A stretch of 64,000 nucleotides of DNA from Streptomyces globisporus. GTDB lineage: Bacteria; Actinomycetota; Actinomycetes; Streptomycetales; Streptomycetaceae. Every line of letters starts with the position of its first letter. Positions within the stretch are counted from its first letter, which is position 1. This document shows, piece after piece, positions 17,450 to 55,721 of this stretch. Both the position numbers and the translations under genes were made by a program. The stretch covers positions 248,001 to 312,000 of the forward strand of contig BMTG01000010.1 in the NCBI GenBank assembly GCA_014649555.1. The letters are read 5' to 3'. The notes under the pieces were generated by a model. The model did no database searches and was not told the DNA's origin. It saw only the letters and a list, made by a program, of their open reading frames with translations.

Positions 17450-17666
17450 CGGTCAGCCCGTCGCCCGTGGCACGGTCCCAGAACGCGGCGTCCTCGCTCT
17501 TGTCCCATTCGGCGAAGGCTGCCTCGTACTCGCTCTCCAGCCGCGAGGTGCGCAGCAGCTCGATCGCGGCCTGGATCACCGCGGACCGCGATTCGGCGGC
17601 GTTGGCGGCCGCATAGGCGTCGACGAAGTCGACATCCTCCTGCGGCAGACTCACACTAATCTTCAT
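17436..17666 (-). CDS. Ribbon-helix-helix antitoxin partner of MazF
   Basis: A 76-aa protein. Residues 1-45 form an RHH DNA-binding domain: strand MKISVSLPQEDVDFVDAYA, a helix, then S-R-S-A-V-I-Q-A-A-I-E-L-L. Residues 46-76 are an acidic, Trp-containing tail (EYEAAFAEWDKSEDAAFWD) suited to wrapping MazF. It is the first gene of the pair, as expected for autoregulation. No Shine-Dalgarno precedes the ATG. A TAGCAT box lies 9 bases upstream on the minus strand, so a leaderless mRNA is possible. GGTAGCA occurs twice in the upstream 40 bases and could be the RHH operator. Confidence 0.85.
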   Translation of the reverse strand: MKISVSLPQEDVDFVDAYAAANAAESRSAVIQAAIELLRTSRLESEYEAAFAEWDKSEDAAFWDRATGDGLTDAAR

Positions 17667-33516: not shown

Positions 33517-33581
33517 GCCACACCCTTCCCGCTTCCCCGTCGTCCGCCTCTTCCCCGTCCCTGGTCCCTGGGAGTTTCGTC

Positions 33582-34913: not shown

Positions 34914-34920
34914 CCCGACG

Positions 34921-35862: not shown

Positions 35863-35865
35863 GCC

Positions 35866-36777: not shown

Positions 36778-36778
36778 C

Positions 36779-38044
36779 ATGAAGCTCGCAGTAGTGGGTG
36801 GCGGGTCCACCTACACCCCTGAACTGATCGACGGATTCGCCCGGCTGCGGGACACGCTGCCGATCGAGGAGCTGGTGCTCGTCGATCCCGCGGCCGACCG
36901 CCTGGAGCTGGTCTCCGGACTCGCCCGGCGGATCTTCGCCAAGCAGGACCACGCGGGGAAGATCACGACGACCACCGACATCGACGCGGGCGTCGCCGAC
37001 GCCGACGCGGTGCTGCTCCAGCTGCGCGTCGGCGGACAGGCCGCGCGCAACCAGGACGAGACCTGGCCGCTGGAGTGCGGCTGCGTCGGCCAGGAGACCA
37101 CCGGCGCCGGCGGCCTCGCCAAGGCGCTGCGCACCGTGCCGGTCGTCCTGGACATCGCCGAGCGGGTCCGCCGCACCAACCCGGACGCCTGGATCATCGA
37201 CTTCACCAACCCGGTCGGCATCGTCACCCGCGCCCTCCTCCAGGCCGGGCACAAGGCGGTCGGCCTGTGCAACGTGGCGATCGGCTTCCAGCGGAAGTTC
37301 GCCCGGTTGCTGGAGGTGGAGCCGGGCCAGGTGCATCTCGACCATGTCGGGCTCAACCATCTGAGCTGGGAGCTGGGGGTGCGCCTCGGCGGCCCGGACG
37401 GCGAGAACGTCCTGCCGAAGCTGCTCGCGGAGCACGGCGACGCCATCGCGGACGACCTCCACATGCCACGCGAGCTGGTGGACCGGCTCGGCGTCGTCCC
37501 CTCCTACTACCTGCGCTACTTCTACGCCCACGACGAGGTGGTGAGGGAGCTCGGCACCAAGCCCTCCCGGGCCGCCGAGGTCGCGGCGATGGAGAAGGAA
37601 CTGCTCGCGATGTACGGCGACCCGGCGCTCGACGAGAAGCCCGAGCTGCTCGCCAAGCGCGGCGGCGCGTTCTACTCCGAGGCGGCCGTGGACCTGGCGG
37701 CCTCACTGCTGGGCGACGGCGGCTCCCCCGTCCAGGTGGTCAACACGTACAACGACGGGACCCTGCCGTTCCTCCCGGACGACGCGGTGATCGAGGTGCA
37801 GGCCCGGGTCGGCCGCGACGGCGCCACACCGCTGGCCGTCCCGGCGCTGGACCCGCTGTACGCCGGCCTCATCGCCAACGTCACGGCGTACGAGGACCTC
37901 GCCCTGGAAGCCGCGCTGCGCGGGGGCCGGGACCGGGTCTTCAAGGCGTTGCTCGCCCACCCGCTGATCGGCCAGTTCGACTACGCCGAGGGCCTCACCG
38001 ACCGGCTGATCGCCCACAACCGGGAGCACCTGGCGTGGGCGTGA
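36779..38044 (+). CDS. csnH: GH4-family glycosidase CsnH
   Basis: A 421-aa NAD- and metal-dependent glycosidase-like enzyme. The Rossmann motif is KLAVVGGGSTYTPELIDGF at the N-terminus. The metal-binding Cys is in GLCNVAIGF and the His in GLNHLSWELG; DFTNPVGIVTRALLQ is a conserved substrate-site segment. GH4 enzymes cleave glycosides, often 6-phosphorylated, by an oxidation-elimination route. In this operon it would process imported glucosamine oligosaccharides, possibly after phosphorylation by CsnK. That order is inference. One base separates it from csnG; its stop overlaps csnK. Confidence 0.85.
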   Translation: MKLAVVGGGSTYTPELIDGFARLRDTLPIEELVLVDPAADRLELVSGLARRIFAKQDHAGKITTTTDIDAGVADADAVLLQLRVGGQAARNQDETWPLECGCVGQETTGAGGLAKALRTVPVVLDIAERVRRTNPDAWIIDFTNPVGIVTRALLQAGHKAVGLCNVAIGFQRKFARLLEVEPGQVHLDHVGLNHLSWELGVRLGGPDGENVLPKLLAEHGDAIADDLHMPRELVDRLGVVPSYYLRYFYAHDEVVRELGTKPSRAAEVAAMEKELLAMYGDPALDEKPELLAKRGGAFYSEAAVDLAASLLGDGGSPVQVVNTYNDGTLPFLPDDAVIEVQARVGRDGATPLAVPALDPLYAGLIANVTAYEDLALEAALRGGRDRVFKALLAHPLIGQFDYAEGLTDRLIAHNREHLAWA

Positions 38045-39009
38045 GCGTGTCGGTCGTCGCCATCGACGCGGGCAACAGCAAGACCGATGTGGCACTGATC
38101 GGCGAGGACGGAACCGTGCTGGCCACGGCGCGCGGCGGCGGTTTCCAGCCGCCCGTGATCGGGGTGGAGGCGGCGGTCGACGTGCTGGCCGGGGTGCTGG
38201 AGCGGGCGGTCGCGGAGCTGCCCGCTCCGCCCGTCCTCTCCGGTCATGTCTCCGCTTGTCTGGCCAACGCCGACCTGCCGGTCGAAGAGGCCGAGTTGGC
38301 CGCAGCTCTGGAGTCGCGAGGGTGGGGCTCCTCGGTGGAGGTGCGCAACGACACCTTCGCGATCCTGCGCGCCGGGGTGGACGAGCCCCGGGGCGTCGCG
38401 GTGGTGTGCGGGGCAGGGATCAACTGCGTGGGTATGACCCCGGACGGGCGGACCGCCCGCTTCCCCGCGATCGGGCGGATCTCCGGTGACTGGGGCGGCG
38501 GTTCGGGGCTTGCGGACGAGGCGCTGTGGTTCGCCGCGCGCGCCGAGGACGGACGGGGCGAGGCTTCGGAGCTGGCCCGCGCGCTGCCGCGCCATTTCGG
38601 GCTCGACTCGATGTACGGGCTGATCGAGGCGCTGCACCGGGGTGTTGTCCCGTCGGCACGGCGGCACGAGCTGACGCCGGTGCTGTTCGCCACGGCGGAG
38701 GCCGGGGACCCGGTGGCGGCCGCGCTGGTGAAGCGGCAGGCGCACGAGGTGGTGGCGATGGCCGCGGTCGCCCTGGACCGCCTCGGTCTGCTGGAGGAGG
38801 AGGTTCCGGTGCTGCTGGGCGGCAGTGTGCTGGCCGCGCGGCACCCGCAGCTCAACGACCGGATCGCCGCGCTGCTGGCGGCCCGCGCCCCGAAGGCCGA
38901 GGTGCGCGTCGTGTCCGAGCCGCCGGTACTGGGCGCGGCGCTGCTGGGCCTGGACCGGACGGGCGCGGGTCCGGAGGTCCACCGGAGGCTGCGCGCGCGG
39001 TACGCCTGA
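38041..39009 (+). CDS. csnK: BadF/BcrAD-type sugar kinase CsnK
   Basis: A 322-aa kinase of the BadF/BadG/BcrA/BcrD ATPase superfamily, close to N-acetylglucosamine kinases. The phosphate-1 motif is VAIDAGNSKTDVALIGEDG; the middle has VCGAGINCVGMTPDGR and G-R-I-S-G-D-W-G-G-G-S-G-L, the N-acetylglucosamine-kinase-type loop; VLLGGSVL is the adenosine motif. GTG 38041 overlaps the csnH stop by four bases (GTGA); GTG 38047 is an alternative. It likely phosphorylates glucosamine or its oligomers for entry into amino-sugar metabolism. It is the last gene of the operon, followed by a strong terminator. Confidence 0.85.
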   Translation: MSVSVVAIDAGNSKTDVALIGEDGTVLATARGGGFQPPVIGVEAAVDVLAGVLERAVAELPAPPVLSGHVSACLANADLPVEEAELAAALESRGWGSSVEVRNDTFAILRAGVDEPRGVAVVCGAGINCVGMTPDGRTARFPAIGRISGDWGGGSGLADEALWFAARAEDGRGEASELARALPRHFGLDSMYGLIEALHRGVVPSARRHELTPVLFATAEAGDPVAAALVKRQAHEVVAMAAVALDRLGLLEEEVPVLLGGSVLAARHPQLNDRIAALLAARAPKAEVRVVSEPPVLGAALLGLDRTGAGPEVHRRLRARYA

Positions 39010-39320: not shown

Positions 39321-40706
39321 GTGACACACCCGCCGAGCGGCGGCTCGCAGACGCTGCGTACGCCGGACCCGGTGTCCGGGACGGTCGGCGTGCCCGCACA
39401 GCGCACCACGTGGACCACGCAGGCGCAGCGCCTGCGTGCCGTGGCGACCACCGAGCCCGGCCGGCTCCAGATCATCGGGGCCGTCCTGGCCCTGCTGGTC
39501 GTCGCGTTCGGCGCGGTGACCACGCTGGAGATATCGCAGCGGGCCTCCTCGGCCGACGACGTGGTCAGCCGCAGCCAGCCGCTCAGCGCCGACGCGGCGG
39601 ACATCTACCGCTTCCTGGCGGACGCGGACACCACGGCGGCCAGTGGGTTCCTCGCGGGGGCGCAGGAGCCCGAGGCGGTGCAGGAGCAGTATCGCAAGGA
39701 CATCGAGGAGGCGGCCCGGCTGCTGGTGAAGGCGTCGGGGAGCACCGACTCCGCCAGTGCGTCCAGCCGGGAGATAGCCACCCTCAACAAGCTGCTCCCG
39801 GTGTACACGGGCCTGATCGAGCGCGCCCGCGCCAACAACCGCCAGGGCCTGCCGCTGGGCGGCGCCTATCTCCGGTACGCCAACCAGAAGATGACCGGCG
39901 AGATGCTCCCCGCCGCCGAGCGGCTGTACGCGGCGGAGACGGGGCGGCTGGAGAGCGACTCGGCCGACGCCCGGCAGTGGCCGCTGTGGTCGATCGGCGC
40001 CGGGATCGTCGTGCTGGGCGCGCTGGGGTGGATGCAGCGGCGCACCTACCGCCGGACGAACCGGGTGCTGAACCACGGGCTGCTGGCGGCGACGGCCGCC
40101 GCCTCGGTGGTGGTGCTCTGGCTGGCCGTGGGGCACACGGTGGCGCGCGCGGAGCTGCGGTCGGCGATGGTGCACGGGCAGGAGTCGCTGGATGTCCTCA
40201 ACGACGCCCGGATCAACTCCCTGAAGGCACGTGCCAACGAGAACCTCACCTTGGTGGCGCGGGGCGCGGTGCTGACGCCCGACGGCTCCGCCGACCAGTA
40301 CGAGGCGGACTACGGCTCGGGGATGAAGGCGCTGAAGGCGCAGCTGGAGAAGGCCGAGCGGCTCGCGGACGACGACAGCGGGAGCGCGCCGGTGGCCACG
40401 GCGGCGGACGGCGTGGCGCAGTGGCAGGCGCGGCACCGGGAGGCCCGGGCCACGGACGACCGGGGCGACTACGACGGCGCGCTGGCGCAGATCATCGGGA
40501 CGGAGAAATCCACCGGGCAGTCCTTCCAGCAGGTGGACGCCGCGCTGGAGAAGGCGCTCGCCCATGAGCAGGGCGAGTTCGCCTCGGCGGCGAAGGACGG
40601 GCGCGGGGCCCTGCGGGGCCTGCCGACCGGCGCCGCGGCCCTGGCGGTGCTGGGGGCCGTCGCCGTCATCGTCGGGGTCAACCGCAGGCTCTCGGAGTAC
40701 CGGTGA
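39321..40706 (+). CDS. glnX: GlnX-like membrane protein
   Basis: A 461-aa membrane protein. Four spans are visible: IIGAVLALLVVAFGAVTTL (about 50-70), SIGAGIVVLGALGW (about 215), LLAATAAASVVVLWLAVGH (about 250) and ALAVLGAVAVIVGVNR near the C-terminus. Two helical extracytoplasmic domains lie between them, like a sensor four-helix bundle. The gene precedes glnH and is in one island with pknG, as in mycobacteria, where GlnX passes the amino-acid signal bound by GlnH to PknG. Identification rests on that order and on topology. GTG 39321 has GGGAGG at the right distance. Confidence 0.75.
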   Translation: MTHPPSGGSQTLRTPDPVSGTVGVPAQRTTWTTQAQRLRAVATTEPGRLQIIGAVLALLVVAFGAVTTLEISQRASSADDVVSRSQPLSADAADIYRFLADADTTAASGFLAGAQEPEAVQEQYRKDIEEAARLLVKASGSTDSASASSREIATLNKLLPVYTGLIERARANNRQGLPLGGAYLRYANQKMTGEMLPAAERLYAAETGRLESDSADARQWPLWSIGAGIVVLGALGWMQRRTYRRTNRVLNHGLLAATAAASVVVLWLAVGHTVARAELRSAMVHGQESLDVLNDARINSLKARANENLTLVARGAVLTPDGSADQYEADYGSGMKALKAQLEKAERLADDDSGSAPVATAADGVAQWQARHREARATDDRGDYDGALAQIIGTEKSTGQSFQQVDAALEKALAHEQGEFASAAKDGRGALRGLPTGAAALAVLGAVAVIVGVNRRLSEYR

Positions 40707-40717
40707 GAGGGGCAGCG

Positions 40718-41752
40718 ATGAGCAGGTCGAAGGACCGGCCCGGGCGCGGCGGCCTGCGCGGCTGGGGCGGGGTGACGGGGATGGCGGTGGCGTGCGCGGT
40801 CACCGCCGCGGTCACGCTGCTGCCGCTGGCCCACCACAACGGCGGATCGGCCGGGGCGGGCACCTCGGGCGGGGTGATGACGGCCGACCGGACCCGGGCC
40901 GAGGCGTGCACGGAGCCGGAGGCGAGCCTGCCCGCGTCCGGCTCCGACGGGCCGAACATCGACAGGATCAAGGAGCGCGGCAAGCTGATAGCGGGCGTCG
41001 ACCAGAACAGCTTCCGCTGGGGCTACCGCAATCCGGAGAGCGGGGCTCTGGAGGGGTTCGACATCGATCTGGTGCGGGCCATCGCCGACGACCTCCTGGG
41101 CGACCCGGACGCGGTGATCTTCCGGGCCATCCCCACCAACCAGCGCATCGCCGCCCTGGAGAACGACCGGGTCGACGTCGTCGTGCGGACGATGACGATC
41201 AACTGCAAGCGGCTGGAGCAGGTCTCCTTCTCCACCGCCTACTTCCAGGCAGGACAGCAGGTGCTCGCCCCGAAGGAGTCGCCGATCACCGGCTACGACT
41301 CCTCGCTGAAGGGCAAGCGGGTCTGCTCGGCCGAGGGCTCGACGGCGTACGAGGCGCTGGAGGAGAAGTCCTTCGGGGCGCTCTACAAGGACGACTTCGA
41401 CGGCACAGAGCGCGACCCGGACCGGCTGACCGTGCCCAACCAGCTGGACTGCCTGGTGCGGCTCCAGCTCGGCGAGGTCGACGCGGTCGTCACGGACAAC
41501 GCCCTGGCGGCCGGGCAGGCGGCGCAGGACCCGGCGGTGGAGCTCAAGGGGAAGGACCCGTTCACCACGGAGTACTACGGCGTCGCCACGAAGAAGGGCT
41601 CCGACGATCTGGTGGCCCGGGTCAACAAGGTCCTCGTCGACTACCGGGCGGGCGGCAAGGACAGCGCCTGGATGCGGTCCTACGAGAAGTGGCTGGCGAC
41701 CGGCCTGCCCGGGATCACCGCACCGCCCGCCCCCAAGTACCGCACCGACTGA
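40718..41752 (+). CDS. glnH: GlnH-like amino-acid binding protein
   Basis: A 344-aa polar-amino-acid binding protein of the family-3 solute-binding type. One N-terminal hydrophobic segment (VTGMAVACAVTAAVTLLPLA) is followed by RIKERGKLIAGVDQNSFRWG, then G-F-D-I-D-L-V-R-A-I-A, NDRVDVVVRTMTI and the ligand-loop region FSTAYFQAGQQVLAPK. Mycobacterial GlnH is a lipoprotein that binds aspartate and glutamate; here the AVAC segment is a poor lipobox, so a membrane anchor is equally likely. ATG 40718 (GAGAGGGG upstream) is chosen over GTG 40703, which overlaps the glnX stop. No transporter permease is nearby, in line with a sensory role. Confidence 0.82.
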   Translation: MSRSKDRPGRGGLRGWGGVTGMAVACAVTAAVTLLPLAHHNGGSAGAGTSGGVMTADRTRAEACTEPEASLPASGSDGPNIDRIKERGKLIAGVDQNSFRWGYRNPESGALEGFDIDLVRAIADDLLGDPDAVIFRAIPTNQRIAALENDRVDVVVRTMTINCKRLEQVSFSTAYFQAGQQVLAPKESPITGYDSSLKGKRVCSAEGSTAYEALEEKSFGALYKDDFDGTERDPDRLTVPNQLDCLVRLQLGEVDAVVTDNALAAGQAAQDPAVELKGKDPFTTEYYGVATKKGSDDLVARVNKVLVDYRAGGKDSAWMRSYEKWLATGLPGITAPPAPKYRTD

Positions 41753-41884
41753 CCCCGCGGCACCTGCGCCGCGGCACCGTGCACCACAGCAGCGAACCGA
41801 CCGGAACGAGCGGGCCGGAGCAGACCGAAGCAGACCGATCCCGCCGGGCCCTCCGGCCCTGCGGGGAGAGCGGAGAGGTGATCG

Positions 41885-43237
41885 ATGGGCGTCGCGGGAT
41901 CCTTCCCCAGCTTCGCGGGGAGGCCCCCCGGACCGGTCATGGACCGGGAGGAGGCGGACCGTGCGCTGGCCCGGCTCGGGGCGGAGCACGAGGCCATCGA
42001 GACCTCGCTCCTCGCGCTCCAGGACCATGCCGGGCGCCGGCTCCTGGAGGGCGCCGAGCTGACCGGCGTCACCCGGGAGCGCTGGGCCTCGACCGAGCAG
42101 TCGATCACCCTCCTGTGGGGGTATTTCGACGCGTACGCGGGGGCGCTGTCCGAGGCCCGCGAGATCCGTGCGCGCCGCCGCCATCCGAACCGGGAGGACC
42201 TCTCCGCGCTGACCGAGCTGCTGCGCGGCGAGTCGGTCACCGTCGCCAATCCGGGTGCGGTGCCGCCGCCTTCGGCCGACGGTCCGGCCCGGCTCTCCGA
42301 GCGGTTCTCGCTCCAGGAGCTGGTCGCCCGGATGAACGAGCTGTACGCCAGGTCCCTGGACATGGTCGTCGCCTCCGACTCCGTCTGGTCGGCGCTGCCC
42401 GCCCGGATCGACCTGCTCGCGGCCGAGCTGCACCGGACGCGTTCGCTGGCGCACTCGGTGGGGGTGCGGCCCGGTGAGCACCCGGCCGGGGACGATCTGG
42501 CGGAGATCACCGAGGAGCTGACGACGCTGCGGGTACAGGTGATCTCGGACCCGCTGGCGTTCTGGCTGCCGGGTCCCGGCAGCGCCGCGCCCGGCGGCGG
42601 CCGCCCCGACACCTCGCGCTACGACCGGGCCGCCCGCGCCCTGGAGGACGTACGGCGCGAGATCGAGGCGGTGCTCGCGGTCCGGCAGGACGCGGAGGCG
42701 CGCCTGGTGCGGCTGCGGGACGTGCTCTCACGGGCCGACCGCACCCTGACGGAGGCGCGGGCGGCGCGCGGCGAGGTGCTGGCGAAGATCGCCGCATCCG
42801 AGGTGCCCGCGGTCAGCGGTCCGCCGACCGCTCTCCAGGAGCGTCTGGCGACCGCCTCCGACCACCGCCGGCACGCCCAGTGGCACCGGCTGTCGCCGCT
42901 GCTGGAGGCCTTGGAGCAGGAGGCCGAGGACGAACTGCTGCGTGCCCGTGAGTCGTTGACCTCGGTGACCGCGCCGCTGGCGGTCCGCGCCGAGCTGCGC
43001 GGCCGGCTCGACGCGTACAAGGCGAAGGTGGCCCGGCACGGCCTGGCGGAGGATCCGCTGCTGATCGAGCGGTACGACGCGGCGCGCCGCATGCTGTGGA
43101 GTGCGCCGTGCGATCTGCGGGTCGCCGAGCAGGCCGTCCTGCGTTACCAGCACGCGGTCGCGGAGTCGCTGCCGTCGCGCCGGCCCGACGGACCACAGGG
43201 TGGGCAAGGCGCGGGCGAACAGGGGGAATCACGATGA
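41885..43237 (+). CDS. Coiled-coil protein of the PknG island
   Basis: A 450-aa soluble, mainly helical protein without a recognised domain. Long heptad-like segments occur around residues 20-90 (ADRALARLGAEHEAIETSLL), 150-200 and 240-420 (ALEDVRREIEAVLAVRQDAE; LSPLLEALEQEAEDELLRAR). The C-terminal 15 residues are Gly/Gln-rich and disordered. ATG 41885 has GAGAGG upstream; ATG 41939 is a possible alternative. Its stop overlaps the pknG start (ATGA), so the two are translationally coupled. Likely a scaffold or partner of the kinase, from position only. Confidence 0.65.
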   Translation: MGVAGSFPSFAGRPPGPVMDREEADRALARLGAEHEAIETSLLALQDHAGRRLLEGAELTGVTRERWASTEQSITLLWGYFDAYAGALSEAREIRARRRHPNREDLSALTELLRGESVTVANPGAVPPPSADGPARLSERFSLQELVARMNELYARSLDMVVASDSVWSALPARIDLLAAELHRTRSLAHSVGVRPGEHPAGDDLAEITEELTTLRVQVISDPLAFWLPGPGSAAPGGGRPDTSRYDRAARALEDVRREIEAVLAVRQDAEARLVRLRDVLSRADRTLTEARAARGEVLAKIAASEVPAVSGPPTALQERLATASDHRRHAQWHRLSPLLEALEQEAEDELLRARESLTSVTAPLAVRAELRGRLDAYKAKVARHGLAEDPLLIERYDAARRMLWSAPCDLRVAEQAVLRYQHAVAESLPSRRPDGPQGGQGAGEQGESR

Positions 43238-46095
43238 GTACGCAGTGCCAGCGCCCCGCGTGCGAGGGGACATACGAGGACATGGGCGGCGGTGAGCTGT
43301 ACTGCGACACCTGCGGTCTGGCTCCGGTCGTCTCGCCGACGGGCATGGTCTCCTCGCCGCCGACCGGGATCGCCGGGGGCGGCCGGGCCAGCAGCCGGGA
43401 CAGTTCCTCGCAGCGCTCCAGCTCCCGTGCCTCCGCCCGGTCCTCGTCCCGTTCGTCGACCTCGCGCCGCTCCGTCTCCGGCCGGCTGTCGCGTTCGCTG
43501 TCCGGGGCGTCGACCTCCCGTTCGGTCTCGGTGCGCTCCTCCGGCTCGACGTCGGCGGCCTCGGCCCGGGGGCGGCTCGGCGTCGGCCTGGTGGAGGTCC
43601 CGGACGTACCCCGGCCCGATCCGCGTACGGCGGTGATGGAGCGGGCGGAGGTGCCCGAGCGCAAGCGGTTCTGCTCCCGTTCGGACTGCGGGGCCCCGGT
43701 GGGCCGTTCGCGCGGTGAGCGGCCGGGCCGCACCGAGGGGTTCTGCACCAAGTGCGGCCACCCGTACTCCTTCGTGCCGAAGCTGACCGGCGGCGACATC
43801 GTGCACGGCCAGTACGAGGTCGTGGGCTGTCTGGCGCACGGCGGTCTCGGCTGGGTGTATCTCGCGGTGGACCGGGCCGTCTCCGACCGCTGGGTGGTCC
43901 TCAAGGGCCTGCTGGACACCGGGGACCAGGACGCGATGGCCGCCGCGATCTCCGAGCGCCGCTTCCTCGCCGAGATCGAGCACTCCAACATCGTGCGGAT
44001 CTACAACTTCGTCGAGCACCTGGACCAGCGCACCGGCTCCCTCGACGGCTACATCGTCATGGAGTACGTCGGCGGCAAGGCCCTCAAGGAGATCGCCAAC
44101 GAGCGCCGCACCCCGGCCGGGAAGCGTGACCCGCTGCCGGTGGAGCAGGCCTGCGCGTACGGGATCGAGGCCCTGGAGGCGCTCGGTCATCTGCACAGCC
44201 GCAATCTGCTCTACTGCGACTTCAAGGTCGACAACGCGATCCAGACCGAGGACCAGCTCAAGCTGATCGACATGGGCGCGGTGCGCCGGATGGACGACGA
44301 GGAGTCCGCGATCTACGGCACCGTCGGCTACCAGGCCCCCGAGGTGGCGGAGCTGGGCCCGTCGGTCGCCTCCGACCTGTACACGGTGGCCCGGACGCTG
44401 GCGGTCCTCACGTTCGACTTCCAGGGGTACACGAACGTCTTCGTGGACTCGCTGCCGGACCCGGACACCATCGAGGTGTTCCGCACCTACGAGTCGTTCT
44501 ACCGGCTGCTGGTGCGGGCCACCGACCCGGACCCGGCCCGGCGGTTCGGCTCGGCCGCGGAGATGGCCGAGCAGCTGACGGGGGTGCTGCGGGAGGTCGT
44601 GGCCCTGCAGACCGGCCGGCCGCGCCCGGCCCTGTCGACGCTGTTCGGCGCGGAACTGCGCGTGGTCGACACGGAGTTGTTCGCCCCGCAGACGGACGAC
44701 GTCTCGCAGCTGGGCGGCCGGGACACCGGCTCCGGGCGGGTCGGGCCGCTGGGCCGCCGCAAGGGCCGCGGTGGCCGGCCGGCCGGCATTCCCGCGCAGG
44801 GCGGCGGCGCGGGGCGGGTCCACGGCGGTGCGGCTCCGGTCGCGCCGGGGGCCGTGACGTCCGCGGTGGCCGGGGCGCTGCCGGTGGGCACGCAGCCGTC
44901 CGGCCCGGCGGGGGGTCACGCGGTGGGCGCCGCTCCCCTGGCCGTGCCGCCGACCCATGTCCGGGGCTCCGCGCCGGGCGGCGCGGACCCGCTCCCGTAC
45001 GTTCCCCCGGCGCACGCGCCTGTTCCGGCGCCCCGGGCGCCCGACCAGGCCCCGGGCGCCGGACCGTACGCCACCGGTCCCTCGGCCGGACCGTACGTCC
45101 AGACCGCCCCGGCCGGACCGTACGGCCCCGGCGGCGGTGTCCGGCTCGCCCCGTTCGACGCCCCGGCCACCGCGTTGGCGCTGCCGGTCCCCCGGGTCGA
45201 CGCGATGGACCCGAACGCCGGTTTCCTCGCGGGACTGATGGCCTCCGCCCCGGCCGAGCTGATCACCGCCCTGCACACGGTCCCCGTCCCCTCGCTGGAG
45301 ACCCGGCTGCGGGAGCTGCGGGCCCGGCTGGAGATGCGGGAGCCGGATGCGGCCGCGCGTGCGCTGACCACCCTGGAGGGTGAACACGCGGACGACTGGC
45401 GGGTCGTCTGGTATCGGGGGGTCACCTCGCTGGTGACCGGAGACCACGAGACGGCGGCGCTCTCCTTCGACGCGGTCTATGACGCGTTCCCCGGCGAGAT
45501 GGCGCCCAAGCTGGCGCTCGGGATCTGTGCGGAGGTGCTGGGCCAGCTGGACAACGCCGCCGAGTACTACCGGCTGGTGTGGGCGACCGATCCCGGGTTC
45601 GTCAGCGCCGCGTTCGGCCTGGCCCGGGTGCAGATCGCCGCCGGGGAGCGGGGTGCGGCGGTGAGCACTCTGGAGTCGGTGCCGGAGGCCTCGATCCACT
45701 ACACGGCGGCACGGGTCGCCACCGTCCGGGCGCGGCTGCGCGAGCGCTCGCACCGGGAACCGCTGCTGACGGATCTGTCGGCCGCCGGGGTCCAGGTGAC
45801 CGCCCTGGACGCCTTCGGTCTGGACCCGGTGCGGCACGAGCAGTTGTCGACGGAGGTACTGGGCAAGGCGCTCGACTGGGTACTCTCCGGTAGTCCCGGT
45901 GTCCCGGGGCCGGGTAGTCCGGACGCCGGTCCGCCGGATGCACGGAAGCTGCTCGGCACCGAACTGACCGAGCGGGGGCTGCGGTTCGGGCTGGAGCGCT
46001 CGTACCGGATGCTCGCCCGGCTCGCTCAGCGGGGCGACGAGAGGATCGAACTGGTGGAGCGGGCCAACCGTTTCCGCCCCCGGACGTGGGTGTGA
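43234..46095 (+). CDS. pknG: PknG-like serine/threonine protein kinase
   Basis: A 953-aa soluble kinase. Residues 5-30 form a zinc ribbon (two Cys pairs). Residues 50-115 are a Ser/Arg-rich strip. Residues 145-180 form a rubredoxin-like knuckle (FCSRSDCGAPVG, then FCTKCGHPYSF). The kinase core has the Gly loop LAHGGLGWVYLA, Lys224, catalytic D329 in LLYCDFKVDN and metal-binding D346 in LIDMGAV, with the activation region YGTVGYQAPEV. The HRD motif is replaced by Y-C-D, as in PknG. A Pro/Gly-rich linker (about 560-660) leads to C-terminal TPR-like helices (about 690-950). ATG 43234 overlaps the previous stop by four bases. Mycobacterial PknG controls the TCA cycle and glutamate metabolism through the FHA protein GarA. 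Confidence 0.9.
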   Translation: MSTQCQRPACEGTYEDMGGGELYCDTCGLAPVVSPTGMVSSPPTGIAGGGRASSRDSSSQRSSSRASARSSSRSSTSRRSVSGRLSRSLSGASTSRSVSVRSSGSTSAASARGRLGVGLVEVPDVPRPDPRTAVMERAEVPERKRFCSRSDCGAPVGRSRGERPGRTEGFCTKCGHPYSFVPKLTGGDIVHGQYEVVGCLAHGGLGWVYLAVDRAVSDRWVVLKGLLDTGDQDAMAAAISERRFLAEIEHSNIVRIYNFVEHLDQRTGSLDGYIVMEYVGGKALKEIANERRTPAGKRDPLPVEQACAYGIEALEALGHLHSRNLLYCDFKVDNAIQTEDQLKLIDMGAVRRMDDEESAIYGTVGYQAPEVAELGPSVASDLYTVARTLAVLTFDFQGYTNVFVDSLPDPDTIEVFRTYESFYRLLVRATDPDPARRFGSAAEMAEQLTGVLREVVALQTGRPRPALSTLFGAELRVVDTELFAPQTDDVSQLGGRDTGSGRVGPLGRRKGRGGRPAGIPAQGGGAGRVHGGAAPVAPGAVTSAVAGALPVGTQPSGPAGGHAVGAAPLAVPPTHVRGSAPGGADPLPYVPPAHAPVPAPRAPDQAPGAGPYATGPSAGPYVQTAPAGPYGPGGGVRLAPFDAPATALALPVPRVDAMDPNAGFLAGLMASAPAELITALHTVPVPSLETRLRELRARLEMREPDAAARALTTLEGEHADDWRVVWYRGVTSLVTGDHETAALSFDAVYDAFPGEMAPKLALGICAEVLGQLDNAAEYYRLVWATDPGFVSAAFGLARVQIAAGERGAAVSTLESVPEASIHYTAARVATVRARLRERSHREPLLTDLSAAGVQVTALDAFGLDPVRHEQLSTEVLGKALDWVLSGSPGVPGPGSPDAGPPDARKLLGTELTERGLRFGLERSYRMLARLAQRGDERIELVERANRFRPRTWV

Positions 46096-46097
46096 AG

Positions 46098-47591
46098 ATG
46101 TCTCAGAGCCACCAGCAGCCCGCCCTGTCGAAGTGCCCCGGCTGCGACGAACCGCCGGCCGCGGGCGACCTGTTCTGCGGGGCGTGCGGCTACGACCTCT
46201 CGGCCGTGCCCGCGCGCCCAGGTGACCGGCCCACGATGGCCATCACCGTGCCCCCTGCCGCCCCGGAAGCGCCGGCTGCTCCGGTCGCGTCGGCCGGCCA
46301 GGCGGCGCCGGCAGCGTCGGGCGCGGAGGCCGTGCGGTGGCCCGCCGCCACGGAGACCGACAGCTCGGACGTGCCCGCGCCCGTGCACCGTCCGTCGGAT
46401 CTGCCGGGGACGGACTCGGGCGGCAGGCCCCTGGCGGAGCAGGAACAGGTCCAGGGGCCGGGTGCGGCGGCCGGGCAGGGCGCGCCGGTCGGGCCCGGGC
46501 CGGAGCCCGTCGGCGGTCCTGAGCCCTCGGCCGTTCCGGTGCGCCACGACGACCGGGCGGAGCCGGGCGGTGCGGAGCACTCCGGTGACTTCGCGCTGGC
46601 CGCGCCCGATCCCCGTACGGCCGAGCACGCCGCGGCGGCCGCCGCTCCCACCGCCGGGGGGAAGGTCTGTGTGGCCTGCCGCTCCGGCCGGGTGGACCCC
46701 GACGGCTACTGCGAGAACTGCGGGCACGCCCAGCCCCGTGAGCGCGACCACATGGAGCAGGAGCTCGGCTCGGTGGCCGCGGTGAGCGACCGGGGCCTGC
46801 GCCATCACCGCAACGAGGACTCCTTCGCGGTGTCCTCGACCGCGCTGCCGGACGGTTCGCCCGCCGTCGTCGCGATCGTCTGCGACGGCGTCTCCTCGGC
46901 GAGCCGCCCCGACGAGGCGTCGGCCGCCGCCGCGAACGCCGCCAACGAGTCACTGCTGGCTTCCCTGCCGCGCGGTACGCATCCGCAGCAGGCGATGCAC
47001 GAGGCGATCGTCGCCGCGTCCGAGGCGGTCAACGCCCTGGCGCAGGAGCCGGCCGGGGCGATGGAGCACGACGCGCACCGCCACCAGAACGCCCCGGCCT
47101 GCACCCTGGTCGGCGCGGTCATGGCGGGCGAGCTGCTGATCGTCGGCTGGGTCGGCGACAGCCGGGTCTACTGGGTGCCCGAGGACCGGAGCCGGCCGAC
47201 CGCCCGGCTCACCGAGGACGACTCCTGGGCCGCGCAGATGGTGGCGGCCGGCCTGATGAACGAGGCGGAGGCGTACGCGGACGAGCGCGCCCACGCCATC
47301 ACCGGCTGGCTCGGCGCCGACGCGTACGAACTGGAGCCGCACACCGCCGCGTTCAAGCCGGACCGGCCGGGCCTGGTCGTCGTGTGCACGGACGGCCTGT
47401 GGAACTACGCCGAGTCCGCCGAGGAGATGGCCGCCGCGGTCCCGGCCGACGCCCAGGAACACCCGTTGCGCGGCGCCCAGGTGCTCGTCGGACACGCGCT
47501 CGACGGCGGGGGCCACGACAACGTAACAGTGGCACTTCTGCCGTTCGCCGTCCGGCCGCAAGGGGCAGGATCGGCCTGCGAAACCGTTTGA
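46098..47591 (+). CDS. PP2C family protein phosphatase with zinc ribbons
   Basis: A 497-aa protein. The N-terminus has C-P-G-C and C-G-A-C-G knuckles; a Pro/Ala/Glu-rich linker of about 130 residues follows; a second ribbon (CVACRSGRVDPDGYCENCG) is near residue 190. The PP2C domain fills the C-terminal 280 residues: VSDRGLRHHRNEDSFAV, VAIVCDGVSSASRPDEAS, VGWVGDSRVYWV, VCTDGLWNYAESAEEM and GGHDNVTVALLPF, with all metal-binding Asp present. It should remove phosphates placed by the neighbouring kinase. Start ATG 46098 lies two bases after the pknG stop; its Shine-Dalgarno is weak, which suits coupling. Confidence 0.9.
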   Translation: MSQSHQQPALSKCPGCDEPPAAGDLFCGACGYDLSAVPARPGDRPTMAITVPPAAPEAPAAPVASAGQAAPAASGAEAVRWPAATETDSSDVPAPVHRPSDLPGTDSGGRPLAEQEQVQGPGAAAGQGAPVGPGPEPVGGPEPSAVPVRHDDRAEPGGAEHSGDFALAAPDPRTAEHAAAAAAPTAGGKVCVACRSGRVDPDGYCENCGHAQPRERDHMEQELGSVAAVSDRGLRHHRNEDSFAVSSTALPDGSPAVVAIVCDGVSSASRPDEASAAAANAANESLLASLPRGTHPQQAMHEAIVAASEAVNALAQEPAGAMEHDAHRHQNAPACTLVGAVMAGELLIVGWVGDSRVYWVPEDRSRPTARLTEDDSWAAQMVAAGLMNEAEAYADERAHAITGWLGADAYELEPHTAAFKPDRPGLVVVCTDGLWNYAESAEEMAAAVPADAQEHPLRGAQVLVGHALDGGGHDNVTVALLPFAVRPQGAGSACETV

Positions 47592-47610
47592 GCCTCAAGG
47601 AGCCGACCAG

Positions 47611-48966
47611 ATGGCCAACTTCTCCAAGTCGCAGGTGCCGCAGTTCTCCGTCGAGGTCTACCAGAACGCGTTCCTGCCCGAGGGCGGCCGTGAGGTCAAC
47701 GCGATCGTCACCGTGACCTCGACCGGCGGCGGCACCACCGGCGGGATACCGCTGGCGGACGCGGCACCCGCGTACGGGGCGGGGCAGGGACCCGGCGCGG
47801 CCGTGGTGCTGATGGTCGACTGCTCCGGCTCGATGGACTACCCGCCGACGAAGATGCGCAACGCGCGCGACGCGACGGCCGCGGCCATCGACACGCTGCG
47901 GGAGGGGACCCAATTCGCGGTGGTCGCCGGAACGCATGTGGCGAAGGACGTCTATCCGGGCAACGGGCGGCTCGCGATCGCCGACGCGCAGACGAAGGCG
48001 CAGGCCAAAGAGGCCCTGCGGAAGCTGAGCGCGGGCGGAGGCACCGCGATCGGCACCTGGCTGCGGCTGGCGGACCGGCTGCTGAACTCCGCCGACGTCG
48101 CCATCCGGCACGGCATCCTGCTGACCGACGGCCGCAACGAGCACGAGTCGCCCGAGGACCTGCGGGCGGCCCTGGACTCCTGCGCGGGCCGGTTCACCTG
48201 CGACGCCCGCGGGGTCGGCACCGACTGGGAGGTGAAGGAGGTCACCGGCGTAGCCGCCGCCCTCCTCGGCACGGCCGACATCGTCGCCGACCCCTCGGGC
48301 CTGGCCGCGGACTTCACGCGGATGATGGAGAACGCCATGGGCAAGGAGGTCGCGGACGTCTCGCTGCGGCTCTGGACCCCGGTGGGCGTGGAGATCCGGT
48401 TCGTGAAGCAGGTCGCACCGACCGTCGCCGACCTGACCGCCCGGCGCACCGAGGCGAACGCCCGGGCCGGGGACTACCCGACCGGTTCCTGGGGCGACGA
48501 GTCCCGCGACTACCACGTGTGCGTCCTGGTGCCGGAGGCCGGGATCGGCCAGGAGATGCTGGCGGCCCGGGTCTCGCTGATCCTGCCCGACCCCTCCGGC
48601 GCGGGCACGCCGCAGACGCTGTCGCAGGGGCTCGTACGGGCCGTGTGGACGGACGACATGGTGGCGTCGACCTCGATCAATCCGCAGGTCGCGCACTACA
48701 CGGGTCAGGCGGAACTGGCACAAGTCATCCAGCAGGGGCTGGACGCACGCAAGTCGGGCGACTTCGACGGCGCGACGGCGAAGCTGGGCCGTGCGGTGCA
48801 GCTGGCGTCGGCGTCCGGGAACCAGGACACCGCGAAGCTGCTTTCGAAGGTGGTCGACGTCGTCGATGCCGCGACAGGTACTGTGCGACTGAAGGCGAAG
48901 GTCGCGGAAGCGGACGAGATGACCCTCGAAACGCGCTCCACCAAGACCGTTCGCGTCAAGAAGTAG
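47611..48966 (+). CDS. VWA domain protein of the PknG island
   Basis: A 451-aa cytoplasmic protein. The von Willebrand A domain at about residues 65-240 has an intact MIDAS motif VVLMVDCSGSMDYPP, the Thr of GGGTAIGTWL and the Asp of ILLTDGRNEHESPED. The N-terminal 60 residues form a beta-rich strand set (FSVEVYQNAFLPEGGREVNA). The C-terminal part has beta-strands and a helical pair (VIQQGLDARKSGDFDGATAKLGRAVQLA) that looks TPR-like. AAGGAG precedes ATG 47611. VWA proteins next to a kinase and a PP2C phosphatase also occur in the TerY-P triads linked to Ter systems. Likely a metal-dependent adaptor; its partner is unknown. Confidence 0.85.
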   Translation: MANFSKSQVPQFSVEVYQNAFLPEGGREVNAIVTVTSTGGGTTGGIPLADAAPAYGAGQGPGAAVVLMVDCSGSMDYPPTKMRNARDATAAAIDTLREGTQFAVVAGTHVAKDVYPGNGRLAIADAQTKAQAKEALRKLSAGGGTAIGTWLRLADRLLNSADVAIRHGILLTDGRNEHESPEDLRAALDSCAGRFTCDARGVGTDWEVKEVTGVAAALLGTADIVADPSGLAADFTRMMENAMGKEVADVSLRLWTPVGVEIRFVKQVAPTVADLTARRTEANARAGDYPTGSWGDESRDYHVCVLVPEAGIGQEMLAARVSLILPDPSGAGTPQTLSQGLVRAVWTDDMVASTSINPQVAHYTGQAELAQVIQQGLDARKSGDFDGATAKLGRAVQLASASGNQDTAKLLSKVVDVVDAATGTVRLKAKVAEADEMTLETRSTKTVRVKK

Positions 48967-49052
48967 CACAAAGCGATCACCTCGCGGTCAACGCACCGCG
49001 ACCGACAGCATGCGGCCTCCGGGGCCGGTAGAGGAGAGGGGGAAGCGCCGAC

Positions 49053-50501
49053 ATGCCGACCTGCCCGAACGGACACCAGTCGGGTTCCGAGGACTGGTGC
49101 GAGGTCTGCGGACACCGCATGACGACCGGCGGTGCGCCCGCGGGCGCGGTGCCCCCGCCGCCTCCTCCGCCGCCCGCGCCCGGTTACGGCTACCCGCAGC
49201 CGGGCTCCGGCACCGGTGGCGGACAGCCCACCATGCAGGCGGAGCTCTGCCCGCAGTGCCGTACGCCGCGTGAGGCGATGGCGCCGTTCTGCGAGGAATG
49301 CCGCTGGAACTTCCTCACCAACACGGCGACCTCCTACACACCGCTGGCCCCGCAGCACAGCACGCCCAGCGGCCCGCCGCCCGGCCTCAACCTGCCGCCC
49401 GGCTTCCAGGCACAGGGCCCCGGCGGTCAGCCCGGCCCCGGTGGTCCAGGCGGCCCTGGTGGCCCCGGTGGTCCCGGTGCGCAGGGCGGTCCGCCCGGCG
49501 CTCCGCAGCCGCGCGACCCGTTCGACTACCAGGGCTCGCGGCCCTCGCAGGTGAACCGCCCCGCCGAGCCGCTCACCCCTGAGCAGAACGGTCCCCAGGG
49601 GAACAGCGGTCCGCAGGGGAACGGCGGCCAGGGCGGTCCTCCGCAGTCGTTCCAGCAGGGGCCCCCGCCGTCCTCGTTCCAGCAGCAGGGCCCGCCGTCG
49701 GCGCGTTCGCCGTTCGAGCCGCAGCAATCCGCTCCGTCGCCGTTCGAACCGCAGCAGTCGGCTCCGTCGCCGTTCGAGCCGCAGCAGGCCTCGCCCTTCG
49801 CGCCGCCGCAGCAGCATCAGCAGTCGGCGCCGCCCGCGCCTCCGCAGTCGTCGGGGCACACCGGCGGGGACGACTGGATGCTGTCGCCGCCCTCCCAGGC
49901 GCAGCAGCCGCAGCCGCCCCAGCAGTTCCAGCAGCCGGGCCCCCACCAGGGCCAGGGCCAGCCGGGTCACCCGGGCCAGGGTCAGCGGCACGGGCAGGAC
50001 CAGGGGTACGACCAGGGCCAGCAGCACGGGCAGGACCAGGGATACGACCAGGGCCAGCAGCACGGCGTGCCCGGCCAGGGCAGGCCGCAGCAGCCCGCCA
50101 CCTGGACCGCCGTGATCGCCCCGGACCGTGCGTACTTCCTCGCGATGATGCAGCGCAGCGGCCCCGAGGCGACCGGGCTGAACCTGCCCGCGTACTCCCC
50201 GGAGCAGCGCCTTCCGCTCACCGGCAGCCAGGTCACCATCGGGCGTCGCCGGCAGAGCACCGGCGAGTCCCCGGACGTCGATCTGTCGGTGCCCCCGGAG
50301 GACCCGGGCGTCTCGCACCAGCACGCGGTGCTGGTGCAGCAGCCCGACGGCGGCTGGGCGGTCGTCGACCAGAACTCCACCAACGGCACCACGCTGAACG
50401 GCGCCGAGGAGCCGATCCAGCCCTACGTCCCCGTGCCGCTCCAGGACGGCGACCAGGTGCACGTCGGGGCCTGGACGACGATCACGGTCCGCCGGGACTG
50501 A
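49053..50501 (+). CDS. FHA domain protein with zinc ribbons and Gln-rich linker
   Basis: A 482-aa protein. Residues 4-20 (CPNGHQSGSEDWCEVCG) and about 66-88 (CPQCRTPREAMAPFCEEC) are zinc ribbons. A 270-residue disordered linker is rich in Pro, Gly and Gln and contains coding tandem repeats. The FHA domain is in the last 110 residues: L-T-G-S-Q-V-T-I-G-R-R, D-P-G-V-S-H-Q-H-A-V-L, and NSTNGTTLNG, so the phosphothreonine-binding Arg, Ser and Asn are present. It is the probable phosphorylated target or reader of the kinase, as GarA is for PknG in mycobacteria, although GarA itself has no ribbons. It follows the VWA gene by 86 bases. Confidence 0.88.
   Translation: MPTCPNGHQSGSEDWCEVCGHRMTTGGAPAGAVPPPPPPPPAPGYGYPQPGSGTGGGQPTMQAELCPQCRTPREAMAPFCEECRWNFLTNTATSYTPLAPQHSTPSGPPPGLNLPPGFQAQGPGGQPGPGGPGGPGGPGGPGAQGGPPGAPQPRDPFDYQGSRPSQVNRPAEPLTPEQNGPQGNSGPQGNGGQGGPPQSFQQGPPPSSFQQQGPPSARSPFEPQQSAPSPFEPQQSAPSPFEPQQASPFAPPQQHQQSAPPAPPQSSGHTGGDDWMLSPPSQAQQPQPPQQFQQPGPHQGQGQPGHPGQGQRHGQDQGYDQGQQHGQDQGYDQGQQHGVPGQGRPQQPATWTAVIAPDRAYFLAMMQRSGPEATGLNLPAYSPEQRLPLTGSQVTIGRRRQSTGESPDVDLSVPPEDPGVSHQHAVLVQQPDGGWAVVDQNSTNGTTLNGAEEPIQPYVPVPLQDGDQVHVGAWTTITVRRD
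49707..49796. repeat. 30-bp coding tandem repeat, three copies
   Basis: Three units at 49707, 49737 and 49767 encode S-P-F-E-P-Q-Q-S-A-P in the FHA-protein linker; the third has drifted in its last codons. Confidence 0.85.
49989..50060. repeat. 36-bp coding tandem repeat, two copies
   Basis: Copies at 49989-50024 and 50025-50060 differ by one base and encode H-G-Q-D-Q-G-Y-D-Q-G-Q-Q. The near identity points to a recent duplication in the Gln-rich linker. Confidence 0.85.
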
Positions 50502-50589: not shown

Positions 50590-50622
50590 GCTCGCCGCCG
50601 CCTTCACCGGCCGGCGGCGAGC
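50590..50622. terminator. Bidirectional hairpin terminator
   Basis: GCTCGCCGCCG (50590-50600) pairs perfectly with CGGCGGCGAGC (50612-50622). It spans the stop codon of the convergent methyltransferase gene and closes the signalling island. Confidence 0.75.
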
Positions 50623-51608
50623 GGCCAGGTGTAGGGGCCCTGCGGGTCGTCGAGCCAGGCCCACTGCCGCCCCTGGCCGACCGTGATGCCGTACCTCTCC
50701 CGCTGCGGACGCCCCTCGCGCTCCCAGAGGGAGAGGGCCTCGTGCGGATCGAGGGTGCCCGCGGTCAGCGTCAGGAGGAACCGGAACAGGTCGTCCCCGG
50801 CCACCCGACGCGGCAGTCCGCCGAGGTGCGGCAGCCCGTCGGCCGGCGGCAGCGCCCCGCGCAGGGGCACGAAGTACGCCGGGGTGTGCAGGAAGTGCCC
50901 TTCGGCGCGCGGTCCGTGCGCCGTCGCACGGACCTCCAGCAGGACGAGACCGGTGGCGAGCGGCGCGAGGATCAACGCCCCCGGACGGCACTGTTCCGGC
51001 CAGCTCTGCGGTACGGAGGGCAGGGTGCAGGTCGCGATGATCCGGTCGTACGGGGCGCGCTCCGGGCAGCCCCGGGCCCCGTCACCGGTGATCACCTTCG
51101 GGTGGTACCCGGCCGCCGCGAGGTGGGCGCGGGCCGACTCCGTGATCTCCGGGTCCAGATCGACGCTGGTCACGGCGGGGTCGCCGAGCCGGTGGGCGAG
51201 GAGGGCCGCGTTGTAGCCGGGGCCGGTGCCGATCTCCAGGACCGTGTGTCCGTCCGCCACATCGAGGGCGTCGAGCATCAGGGCCATCAGGGACGGCTGG
51301 CTGGAGGACGAGACGAGTTCGCCGTCCTTGAGGCAGGTGGCCAGCGCCCCGTCCGCGTACACCCCGTGCAGCCAGCGTGAGCGTTGTCCGGGGTCGGCGC
51401 CTTCGGCCCCGAGGCGTTCGTAGCCCCCGATCCCGTGCACGTAGAAGAACGGCACGAACAGATGGCGGGGCACCTCGGCGAAGGCGGTGCGCCAGGCGGG
51501 ATCGGTGAGTCCGCCCCGCGCGACGATCTCCCGCACGAGGGCGTCCCGCGCCGCGTCGGCCTCGGCGTCGGGGGCGGACGGGGAGGGGCCCTGCCGGTGT
51601 GCACCCAT
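50604..51608 (-). CDS. PCMT-like SAM-dependent methyltransferase
   Basis: A 334-aa protein. The N-terminal helix DALVREIVARGGLTDPAWRTAF and the P-R-H-L-F-V-P segment resemble protein-L-isoaspartate O-methyltransferases. The SAM motif is VLEIGTGPGYNAALLAHRLG near residue 120, followed by V-T-S-V-D-L-D and YDRIIATCTLPSVPQ. The substrate loop is SSSSQPSLMALML, where true PCMT enzymes have a T-I-S-x-P-H pattern, so the methyl acceptor may differ. The C-terminal 90 residues are an extension. ATG 51608 is chosen; the longer frame is not family-like. It is divergent from the globin gene by 112 bases. Confidence 0.8.
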   Translation of the reverse strand: MGAHRQGPSPSAPDAEADAARDALVREIVARGGLTDPAWRTAFAEVPRHLFVPFFYVHGIGGYERLGAEGADPGQRSRWLHGVYADGALATCLKDGELVSSSSQPSLMALMLDALDVADGHTVLEIGTGPGYNAALLAHRLGDPAVTSVDLDPEITESARAHLAAAGYHPKVITGDGARGCPERAPYDRIIATCTLPSVPQSWPEQCRPGALILAPLATGLVLLEVRATAHGPRAEGHFLHTPAYFVPLRGALPPADGLPHLGGLPRRVAGDDLFRFLLTLTAGTLDPHEALSLWEREGRPQRERYGITVGQGRQWAWLDDPQGPYTWPLAAGR

Positions 51609-51720
51609 GTCTCCACTGTCCTGTGCCGGAGGCGTGGGGGCGAGAGGGAGCGCTGCCCCGGTCCCGGACGTTGGTCCTAGGACCGCTGACCTCGGGCGGT
51701 ACGTCTGCGACCATGGACGG

Positions 51721-52125
51721 GTGACTGAGATTCCGCGCGACACGCTTCAGGAGCAGACCTTCTACGAGCAGGTCGGCGGCGAGGCGACCTTCCGGCGCCT
51801 GGTCCACCGCTTCTACGAGGGCGTGGCGGGCGACGAGCTGCTGCGGCCGATGTACCCGGAGGAGGATCTGGGCCCGGCCGAGGAGCGGTTCGCGCTGTTC
51901 CTGATGCAGTACTGGGGCGGCCCGCGCACCTACAGCGACCACCGGGGCCACCCGCGGCTGCGGATGCGGCACGCGCCGTTCCGGGTGGACCGCGCGGCCC
52001 ATGACGCCTGGCTCGCCCATATGCGGGTCGCGCTGGACGAGCTGGGGCTCGCGCCGGAGCACGAGCGGCAGCTGTGGGACTACCTGACGTACGCCGCGGC
52101 CTCGATGGTCAACACCGCGGACTGA
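51721..52125 (+). CDS. glbO: Group II truncated haemoglobin
   Basis: A 134-aa 2-on-2 globin. FYEQVGGEATFRRLVHRFYEGV holds the B-helix Tyr (B10 position), PMYPEEDLGPAEERFALFLMQYWGG the CD/E region, and LRMRHAPF the proximal His on helix F, followed by AWLAHM with the Trp(G8) that marks group II. The length is normal. Group II globins bind O2 tightly and are linked to oxidative and nitrosative stress in actinobacteria. GTG 51721 starts MTEIPRDTL. It is divergent from the methyltransferase gene. Confidence 0.92.
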   Translation: MTEIPRDTLQEQTFYEQVGGEATFRRLVHRFYEGVAGDELLRPMYPEEDLGPAEERFALFLMQYWGGPRTYSDHRGHPRLRMRHAPFRVDRAAHDAWLAHMRVALDELGLAPEHERQLWDYLTYAAASMVNTAD

Positions 52126-52324
52126 TCACTCCCGGACGTCGGCGGATCACCGGCCAGCGGCGAACGGCGAGCGGCCACGTGAACGTTCTGTGACCGAACG
52201 CCTCCGGAATTCGACGCTCCACCTCCGGATAACGATCACGATCGCATCAAGGTGCGCCTGTAAGCGGTTACCGAAACCCGGGTGCCTCTGAAAGCATCAC
52301 CGGTACGTCGGGGGGCGTGCGCGT

Positions 52325-55720: not shown

Positions 55721-55721
55721 C

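Follow-up and report, generated by a model that had tools for sequence, protein, structure and literature searches.

In the TerY-P triad, genes for a VWA protein, a PP2C phosphatase and a kinase lie side by side, the TerY-type VWA protein being defined by TerY_C, and the PknA/PknB-PstP-FhaA/FhaB cell-wall cluster encodes kinase, PP2C and FHA proteins together. The threonine-phosphorylation pathway of the type VI secretion system (T6SS; PpkA, PppA, Fha1 and TagR) comprises a kinase, a cognate phosphatase, an FHA reader, a VWA domain and an activator protein, and its VWA domain, described as extracellular, forms part of PpkA by fusion (PMC3224232). The GlnH-GlnX-PknG set is published as conserved in Actinobacteria including Streptomyces (PMC6069109), and work on C. 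glutamicum describes the interaction of GlnX with PknG as still elusive (PMC9769921). Here we examine a seven-gene island around pknG in a window (the whole stretch of DNA analyzed, 64,000 nucleotides) from Streptomyces globisporus (GenBank assembly GCA_014649555.1, contig BMTG01000010.1, positions 248,001 to 312,000 of the forward strand). We propose that the island is the full, probably ancestral form of an actinobacterial PknG switch with two arms, a sensor-kinase arm and a zinc-ribbon-tagged phosphatase/reader arm acting on GarA, a proposal whose chances we judge to be evenly balanced. It draws on gene content and order, intact active-site motifs, the genes that are lost together with pknG, the distribution of zinc ribbons and a PknG tree.

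Genes and proteins of the island

The original prediction for this DNA described a same-direction run of seven genes with overlaps or small gaps, and all seven open reading frames (ORFs) are indeed present, open and on the plus strand. The first, glnX (39321-40706), encodes a GlnX-family membrane signal-transduction protein (NF058618, 483.6 bits at a cut-off of 250; 190.3 bits for the equivalog model NF041460, below its cut-off of 780). It is followed by glnH (40703-41752, alternative start ATG 40718), for an amino-acid-binding protein (SBP_bac_3) whose best solved relatives, 6h1u and 6h2t, are named GlnH, and by a gene (41885-43237) for a helical coiled-coil protein of an unnamed family, here called cc. 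The pknG ORF spans 43096-46095, with a more likely start at ATG 43234, and encodes a Ser/Thr kinase with an N-terminal zinc ribbon, rubredoxin, kinase and TPR domains; the extra N-terminal ribbon (CxxxxCxG...YCDTCG) was placed by sequence at 43246-43317, and the rubredoxin-type metal site (PF16919, 108 bits) lies at 43672-43758. The PP2C gene (46086-47591; PP2C_2, 50 bits) encodes two N-terminal zinc ribbons (46134-46190 and 46668-46724), the VWA gene (47611-48966) encodes VWA and VWA_3_C domains with a metal ion-dependent adhesion site (MIDAS; 47818-47832, 48043 and 48127), and the FHA gene (49053-50501) encodes two N-terminal zinc ribbons (49062-49112 and 49248-49301), a low-complexity linker and an FHA domain at about 50232-50468 (58.9 bits).

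In the window, glnX and glnH overlap by 4 bases, cc and pknG by 4 bases with the ATG 43234 start, and pknG and PP2C by 10 bases; gaps of 132, 19 and 86 bases separate glnH from cc, PP2C from VWA and VWA from FHA, respectively. The streptomycete medians, which rest on start codons guessed by script, are -4 for glnX/glnH and for cc/pknG (80 loci) and +2 for pknG/PP2C (73 loci), with wider gaps of 67 for glnH/cc, 75 for PP2C/VWA and 58.5 for VWA/FHA. A scan for promoters and terminators detected nothing promoter-like and a single terminator-like site, where 1.4 would be expected.

Pfam and NCBIfam families recognize every island protein except cc. PknG matches rubredoxin PF16919, kinase PF00069 and TPR PF16918, all above cut-off, and the solved structure 2pzi (E value 1.7e-162). 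Judged by eye, the motifs of the kinase (K/D/N/DxG), the PP2C (RNED / DGVS / GDSR / TDG / DN) and the FHA domain (GR / SHxH / STNGT) are intact, and the PP2C scores 104.7 bits with a Stp1-type model, under its cut-off of 230. The VWA protein, predicted to be MIDAS-competent, has a complete metal site by eye (D70-S72-S74, T145, D173) whose residues are invariant across 36 aligned rows; its family profile matches the solved relative 4fx5 at E 6e-180, and it is among the best conserved members: 72 of the 80 streptomycete loci show it, with best tblastn segments that are 75 to 98 % identical. For cc, we obtained no Pfam or NCBIfam match at E 0.01. Its AlphaFold2 model is a long helical protein (mean predicted local distance difference test score of 92.7), for which Foldseek found no match in the PDB at E <= 0.001 (best E 0.38), and a profile search of the PDB gave coiled-coil-like matches only (best E 1.1e-4, to a designed protein).

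The island has in common with the GlnH-GlnX-PknG-GarA/OdhI system of mycobacteria and corynebacteria a GlnX-family protein, a substrate-binding protein with most pocket residues, the rubredoxin/kinase/TPR build of PknG and a GarA ortholog with an ETTS motif in the genome. Beyond that system, it adds cc, PP2C, VWA and FHA, an extra ribbon on PknG, a ribbon on GarA and a Trp232 to Gln exchange in GlnH. Its logic is similar to that of the T6SS pathway, but the island VWA is a separate gene and the T6SS kinase is not of the PknG type; this comparison covers the kinase, phosphatase, FHA and VWA genes alone, T6SS genes not having been searched for. The likeness to the TerY-P triad that had been pointed out holds for the parts list, the same three protein types adjoining in the island, but stops at the VWA protein, which carries VWA_3_C and has no TerY_C match at E 0.01 in Pfam; the island also has a PknG-type kinase and adds sensor, FHA and cc. 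The grouping of kinase, PP2C and FHA is common to the PknA/PknB-PstP-FhaA/FhaB cluster, but the island kinase is of the PknG type, and the island FHA protein scores 37.4 bits with the FhaB model NF049868 (cut-off 125), too low for FhaB orthology. Identity of the island with the S. coelicolor SCO4775-4779 kinase cluster was rejected, that cluster being published, in the part of the source available, as five separately transcribed kinase genes.

Conservation and history of the gene set

Eighty streptomycete loci were fetched through PknG, and they therefore measure conservation of order, not abundance. The complete septet stands in a single order in 69 of the 80 by tblastn and, with locus L077 added, in all 70 uncut loci; an apparent loss of PP2C in L077 was rejected, since an open PP2C gene is present there and had been missed by tblastn. 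The remaining 10 loci end inside the island at a contig end. The linkage of the seven genes is not due to chance. At the family level, PknG_TPR matches 117 of 121 genomes (E <= 1e-15). At the class level, PknG matches 140 of 394 genomes (E <= 1e-40) and the cc profile 99 (E <= 1e-8); VWA occurs in 96 of these genomes, and a comparison of the two listings gives 94 shared by VWA and PknG against 34 expected. In a phylum sample, 25 of 198 genomes match at E <= 1e-3, with 16 above the family cut-off.

A further 89 PknG loci, from other groups and from three streptomycete paralogue loci, were hand-picked to sample families, so that fractions among them are not frequencies. Both PP2C and VWA are present in 44; of the others, 32 have the trio (glnX-glnH-pknG only, the mycobacterial type) or a lone PknG, 7 have PP2C but lack VWA and 6 have VWA but lack PP2C, some of the partial sets being cut by contig ends. 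The comparison across Actinobacteria that the original prediction had called for finds the septet widespread, across several families of Actinobacteria and also in another class, and the idea of a pathway distinct to streptomycetes is given up. The order cc-pknG-PP2C-VWA-FHA is constant in full sets across families and in the other class, although the cc profile had no match in some loci of family f68. The glnX-glnH genes move as a pair. Of the 43 loci with PP2C, VWA and FHA, 18 have the pair upstream of pknG and 22 (family f68) have it downstream; in L194, from the other class, it runs convergently on the opposite strand, and for the last two loci it is either missing or beyond the DNA that was fetched.

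A paralogous set, consisting of the C-terminal part of cc, pknG, vwa and a glnX-like gene, was seen in loci L202, L203, L204, L271, L273 and L285, none of which gave a match to PP2C or GlnH. The VWA protein of L203 has a C-terminal zinc ribbon of its own, weakly scoring.

The PknG tree (104 rows, quick method, midpoint-rooted, with long-branch warnings) bears on the relation between trio and septet. All 23 trio-type PknGs of family f3, which from its high PknG_TPR model scores we infer to be the mycobacterial group, form one clade, and its sister group is made up of two septets, L198 and L255, whose genomes belong to that family as well (Shimodaira-Hasegawa-like approximate likelihood ratio test, 99). 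Given this sister relationship within a single family, the trio is probably a reduced derivative of the septet, and the full set ancestral. Within this family, genome G542 carries trio-type and lone PknGs alongside its septet, and G463 has a second PknG copy, of mycobacterial type as judged by score only. A history in the other direction, in which an original trio later merged, on several occasions, with a mobile set of PP2C, VWA, FHA and cc to give the septet, seems rather unlikely to us. The differing positions of the sensor pair and the copies of the module without adjoining PknG in family f69 would fit such a fusion, and the root of the PknG tree is not fixed; however, the core order from cc to FHA is the rule in full sets in all the groups named above, and the trio label needs only five changes on the tree, nested in septet-bearing groups.

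Natural loss of pknG and the surroundings of the island

Eight streptomycete-family genomes lack an island-type PknG while the locus is readable (G334, G458 and G490 at E <= 1e-40; G584 and G585 at E <= 1e-15; G746, G868 and G884 at E <= 1e-50). At the locus itself, none of the eight has an intact glnX or glnH, both being missing or reduced to fragments, and VWA is absent or broken in seven, whereas cc, PP2C and FHA each form a single open frame in all eight. Broken remnants of the lost genes are still visible in G334 and G746, and a short PknG remnant is present in G584 (32 bits) and a doubtful one in G458 (15 bits). Kept and lost genes alternate along the DNA, a pattern that a single deletion could not produce. 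On a tree of cc and PP2C (quick, midpoint-rooted, with long-branch warnings for some loss rows) the losses need at least five label changes, or seven events if regain is excluded, and by these seven inferred events VWA loss differs from loss of the other three genes (cc, PP2C and FHA) with a Fisher p of 1.9e-5. A genome-wide search detected no full-length island-type VWA in the seven VWA-loss genomes; a partial-scoring VWA on another contig of G868 (best E 5.0e-56) was provisionally taken as a paralogue. In these losses, VWA goes with the sensor and the kinase.

Several further streptomycete genomes that lack a PknG_TPR match were rejected as losses on account of a contig break within or beside pknG; the break was seen directly in G797, G846 and G806 and was judged only by the placement of cc and VWA on separate contigs in G669, G694, G698, G779, G790, G811 and G855. 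Also left out of the count were G794, with VWA in frameshifted pieces and pknG kept on another contig, as well as G668, G675, G760, G763, G773 and five further PknG-less genomes.

The PP2C is not only the antagonist of PknG, because it outlives PknG in all eight loss genomes, and the earlier view that it is merely matched to this kinase was abandoned. The persistence of cc, PP2C and FHA in the same eight genomes also weakens the idea of a dedicated switch, in which PP2C, VWA and FHA would oppose or read PknG alone under one amino-acid signal. We hold that idea to be improbable, even with the tight linkage, the short cc/pknG and pknG/PP2C junctions and the co-occurrence that speak for it.

Upstream of the island lies an apparent sugar-uptake cluster (32341-39009, plus strand), with a regulator, a binding protein and permeases recognized by eye and a GH4 glycosidase and a BadF-type ATPase recognized by Pfam. 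The downstream neighbors (50604-58592) include a PCMT-type methyltransferase on the minus strand, a bacterial globin and two large ORFs matching FtsX-like permease, the second below the family cut-off. Farther upstream, the minus strand carries a PemK/MazF-type toxin gene (17102-17449) and, upstream of and overlapping it, a small ORF (17436-17654, minus strand) that has no Pfam match and may by position only be the antitoxin.

GarA, zinc ribbons and a possible two-armed switch

The island FHA protein is neither GarA nor the GarA-like output of the switch: the GarA ortholog of the window genome (L206) lies on another contig and scores 190.9 bits with the OdhI/GarA model NF041660, just under its cut-off of 200, compared with 27.8 bits for the island FHA. 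This ortholog has the sequence SETTSTIS (ETTS motif) and an N-terminal zinc ribbon. In a survey of 31 genomes (the window genome and 30 chosen ones), 25 have the N-terminal GarA ribbon and six, all from trio-bearing families, lack it, a count that like all ribbon counts here rests on Cys patterns. Ribbon and ETTST motif are kept in all eight PknG-loss genomes; the motif is altered in several genomes of families f68, f69, f77 and others (for example DxTSTIS, EQTSTL and DSTATI). Of 50 septet loci (seven chosen streptomycetes included), 36 have at least two ribbons ahead of the PknG kinase domain, against 0 of 30 trio loci; with another Cys pattern, the extra PknG ribbon is found in 33 of 44 septet loci against one of 32 loci with the trio or a lone PknG. 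At least one ribbon is present on PP2C in 49 and on FHA in 47 of the 50 septet loci.

We propose that GlnH captures an amino acid on the outer side of the membrane and that GlnX relays its state across, whereupon PknG would be switched on. The MIDAS-type VWA protein would be a kinase-specific partner, adaptor or assembly factor. In the second arm, cc would form a helical scaffold, the ribbon-tagged PP2C would remove phosphates and the ribbon-tagged FHA protein would read them. GarA, encoded elsewhere and a putative substrate of both PknG and PP2C, is most likely the main target that the arms share, and the ribbons on PknG, PP2C, FHA and GarA may be docking tags; each of these protein contacts, like the ligand, is predicted. 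GarA/OdhI is phosphorylated by other Ser/Thr kinases as well, so that the phosphatase-reader arm would stay useful after loss of PknG. OdhI of C. glutamicum receives its phosphorylation from all four kinases of that species and loses it through the PP2C-family phosphatase Ppp (PMC2784874). The island PP2C may act on GarA. As a whole, the cluster probably tunes metabolism to amino acids in the surroundings. The complete reversible phospho-switch of the original prediction thus survives as a linked, PknG-centered set with an amino-acid-type sensor, PP2C, MIDAS-competent VWA and FHA, shorn of its restriction to streptomycetes and of its PP2C matched to PknG alone, and with the GarA ortholog encoded outside the island.

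The ribbons also bear on another explanation, that cc, PP2C and FHA are a separate unit for some other target or kinase, parked in the PknG operon, with GarA and its ribbon unrelated. These genes are kept without PknG, the f3 genomes G542 and G463 have a septet and yet a ribbonless GarA, and the proposed link between PP2C and GarA is indirect; however, the GarA ribbon is absent from four trio-only genomes (G150, G310, G549 and G557) and present in 25 from other lineages, and the ribbons of PP2C and FHA have a similar pattern. We regard this explanation as possible, if doubtful.

Several observations besides the two ribbonless septet genomes weigh against the two-armed PknG switch. The septet-to-trio direction rests on parsimony on a midpoint-rooted tree, and the sensor losses were scored at the locus only. 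VWA is open without PknG in G884, and G481 has cc-PP2C-VWA-FHA with no PknG match at E <= 1e-40. The f69 loci L266, L267 and L268 have PP2C-VWA-FHA with no adjoining PknG match; a kinase search in L266, L270 and L280, which lack a good PknG match, found none that was clear, L280 giving partial PknG-kinase matches. VWA is not always needed, because family f68 loses it while keeping PknG (clean loss in L224, L225 and L228, decay or truncation in L216 and L229, and loss together with FHA in L218). The second PknG ribbon was not seen in 14 of the 50 septet loci, and the one trio locus with an extra ribbon by the second pattern is L174. Finally, the Trp232 site of GlnH is Gln in 80 of 80 streptomycete proteins.

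This last exchange concerns the ligand. Three side-chain contacts in the solved mycobacterial GlnH are Arg147, Thr162 and Trp232 (PMC6069109); Ser164, Arg169 and Asp250 were compared as further residues of the Asp/Glu pocket. Among the 80 streptomycete proteins, Arg147 and Asp250 are kept in 80 and Thr162 and Arg169 in 79, the Ser164 site is Thr in 75 and Ser in five, and Lys161 is Arg in all. Because Trp232 is replaced, though Arg147 and Thr162 are kept, aspartate or glutamate as the ligand is uncertain; an acidic amino acid is plausible. In f68 septets with a downstream sensor (loci among L166-L177 and L216-L233), the Trp232 site is Tyr in 21 of 21 GlnH proteins, which suggests a different ligand.

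Our literature searches found no paper describing a PknG-PP2C-VWA-FHA operon, which is weak evidence of absence since they covered open-license literature only; PMC1262709 was the only paper to contain PknG, VWA, PP2C and FHA together, without a description of this operon in the part available. As far as these searches show, the seven-gene set and its spread, the nested position of the trio, the co-loss of VWA, the survival of cc, PP2C and FHA and the ribbon pattern of GarA are new.

More tentatively, the mycobacterial PknG pathway may be a relic of a larger actinobacterial system in which a zinc-ribbon address code would gather PknG, PP2C, the FHA reader and GarA on a helical scaffold. VWA, as a MIDAS partner specific to the kinase, would then assist the coupling between GlnX and PknG, and the phosphatase-reader arm would reset GarA autonomously and outlive the kinase. 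Should the septet prove ancestral, VWA and cc would be candidates for the missing coupling parts. Natural loss sorts the genes into glnX, glnH, pknG and VWA on one side and the self-surviving cc, PP2C and FHA on the other. The island PP2C is a candidate GarA phosphatase in antibiotic producers, and GarA engineering has been reported to raise erythromycin production (PMC12321487).

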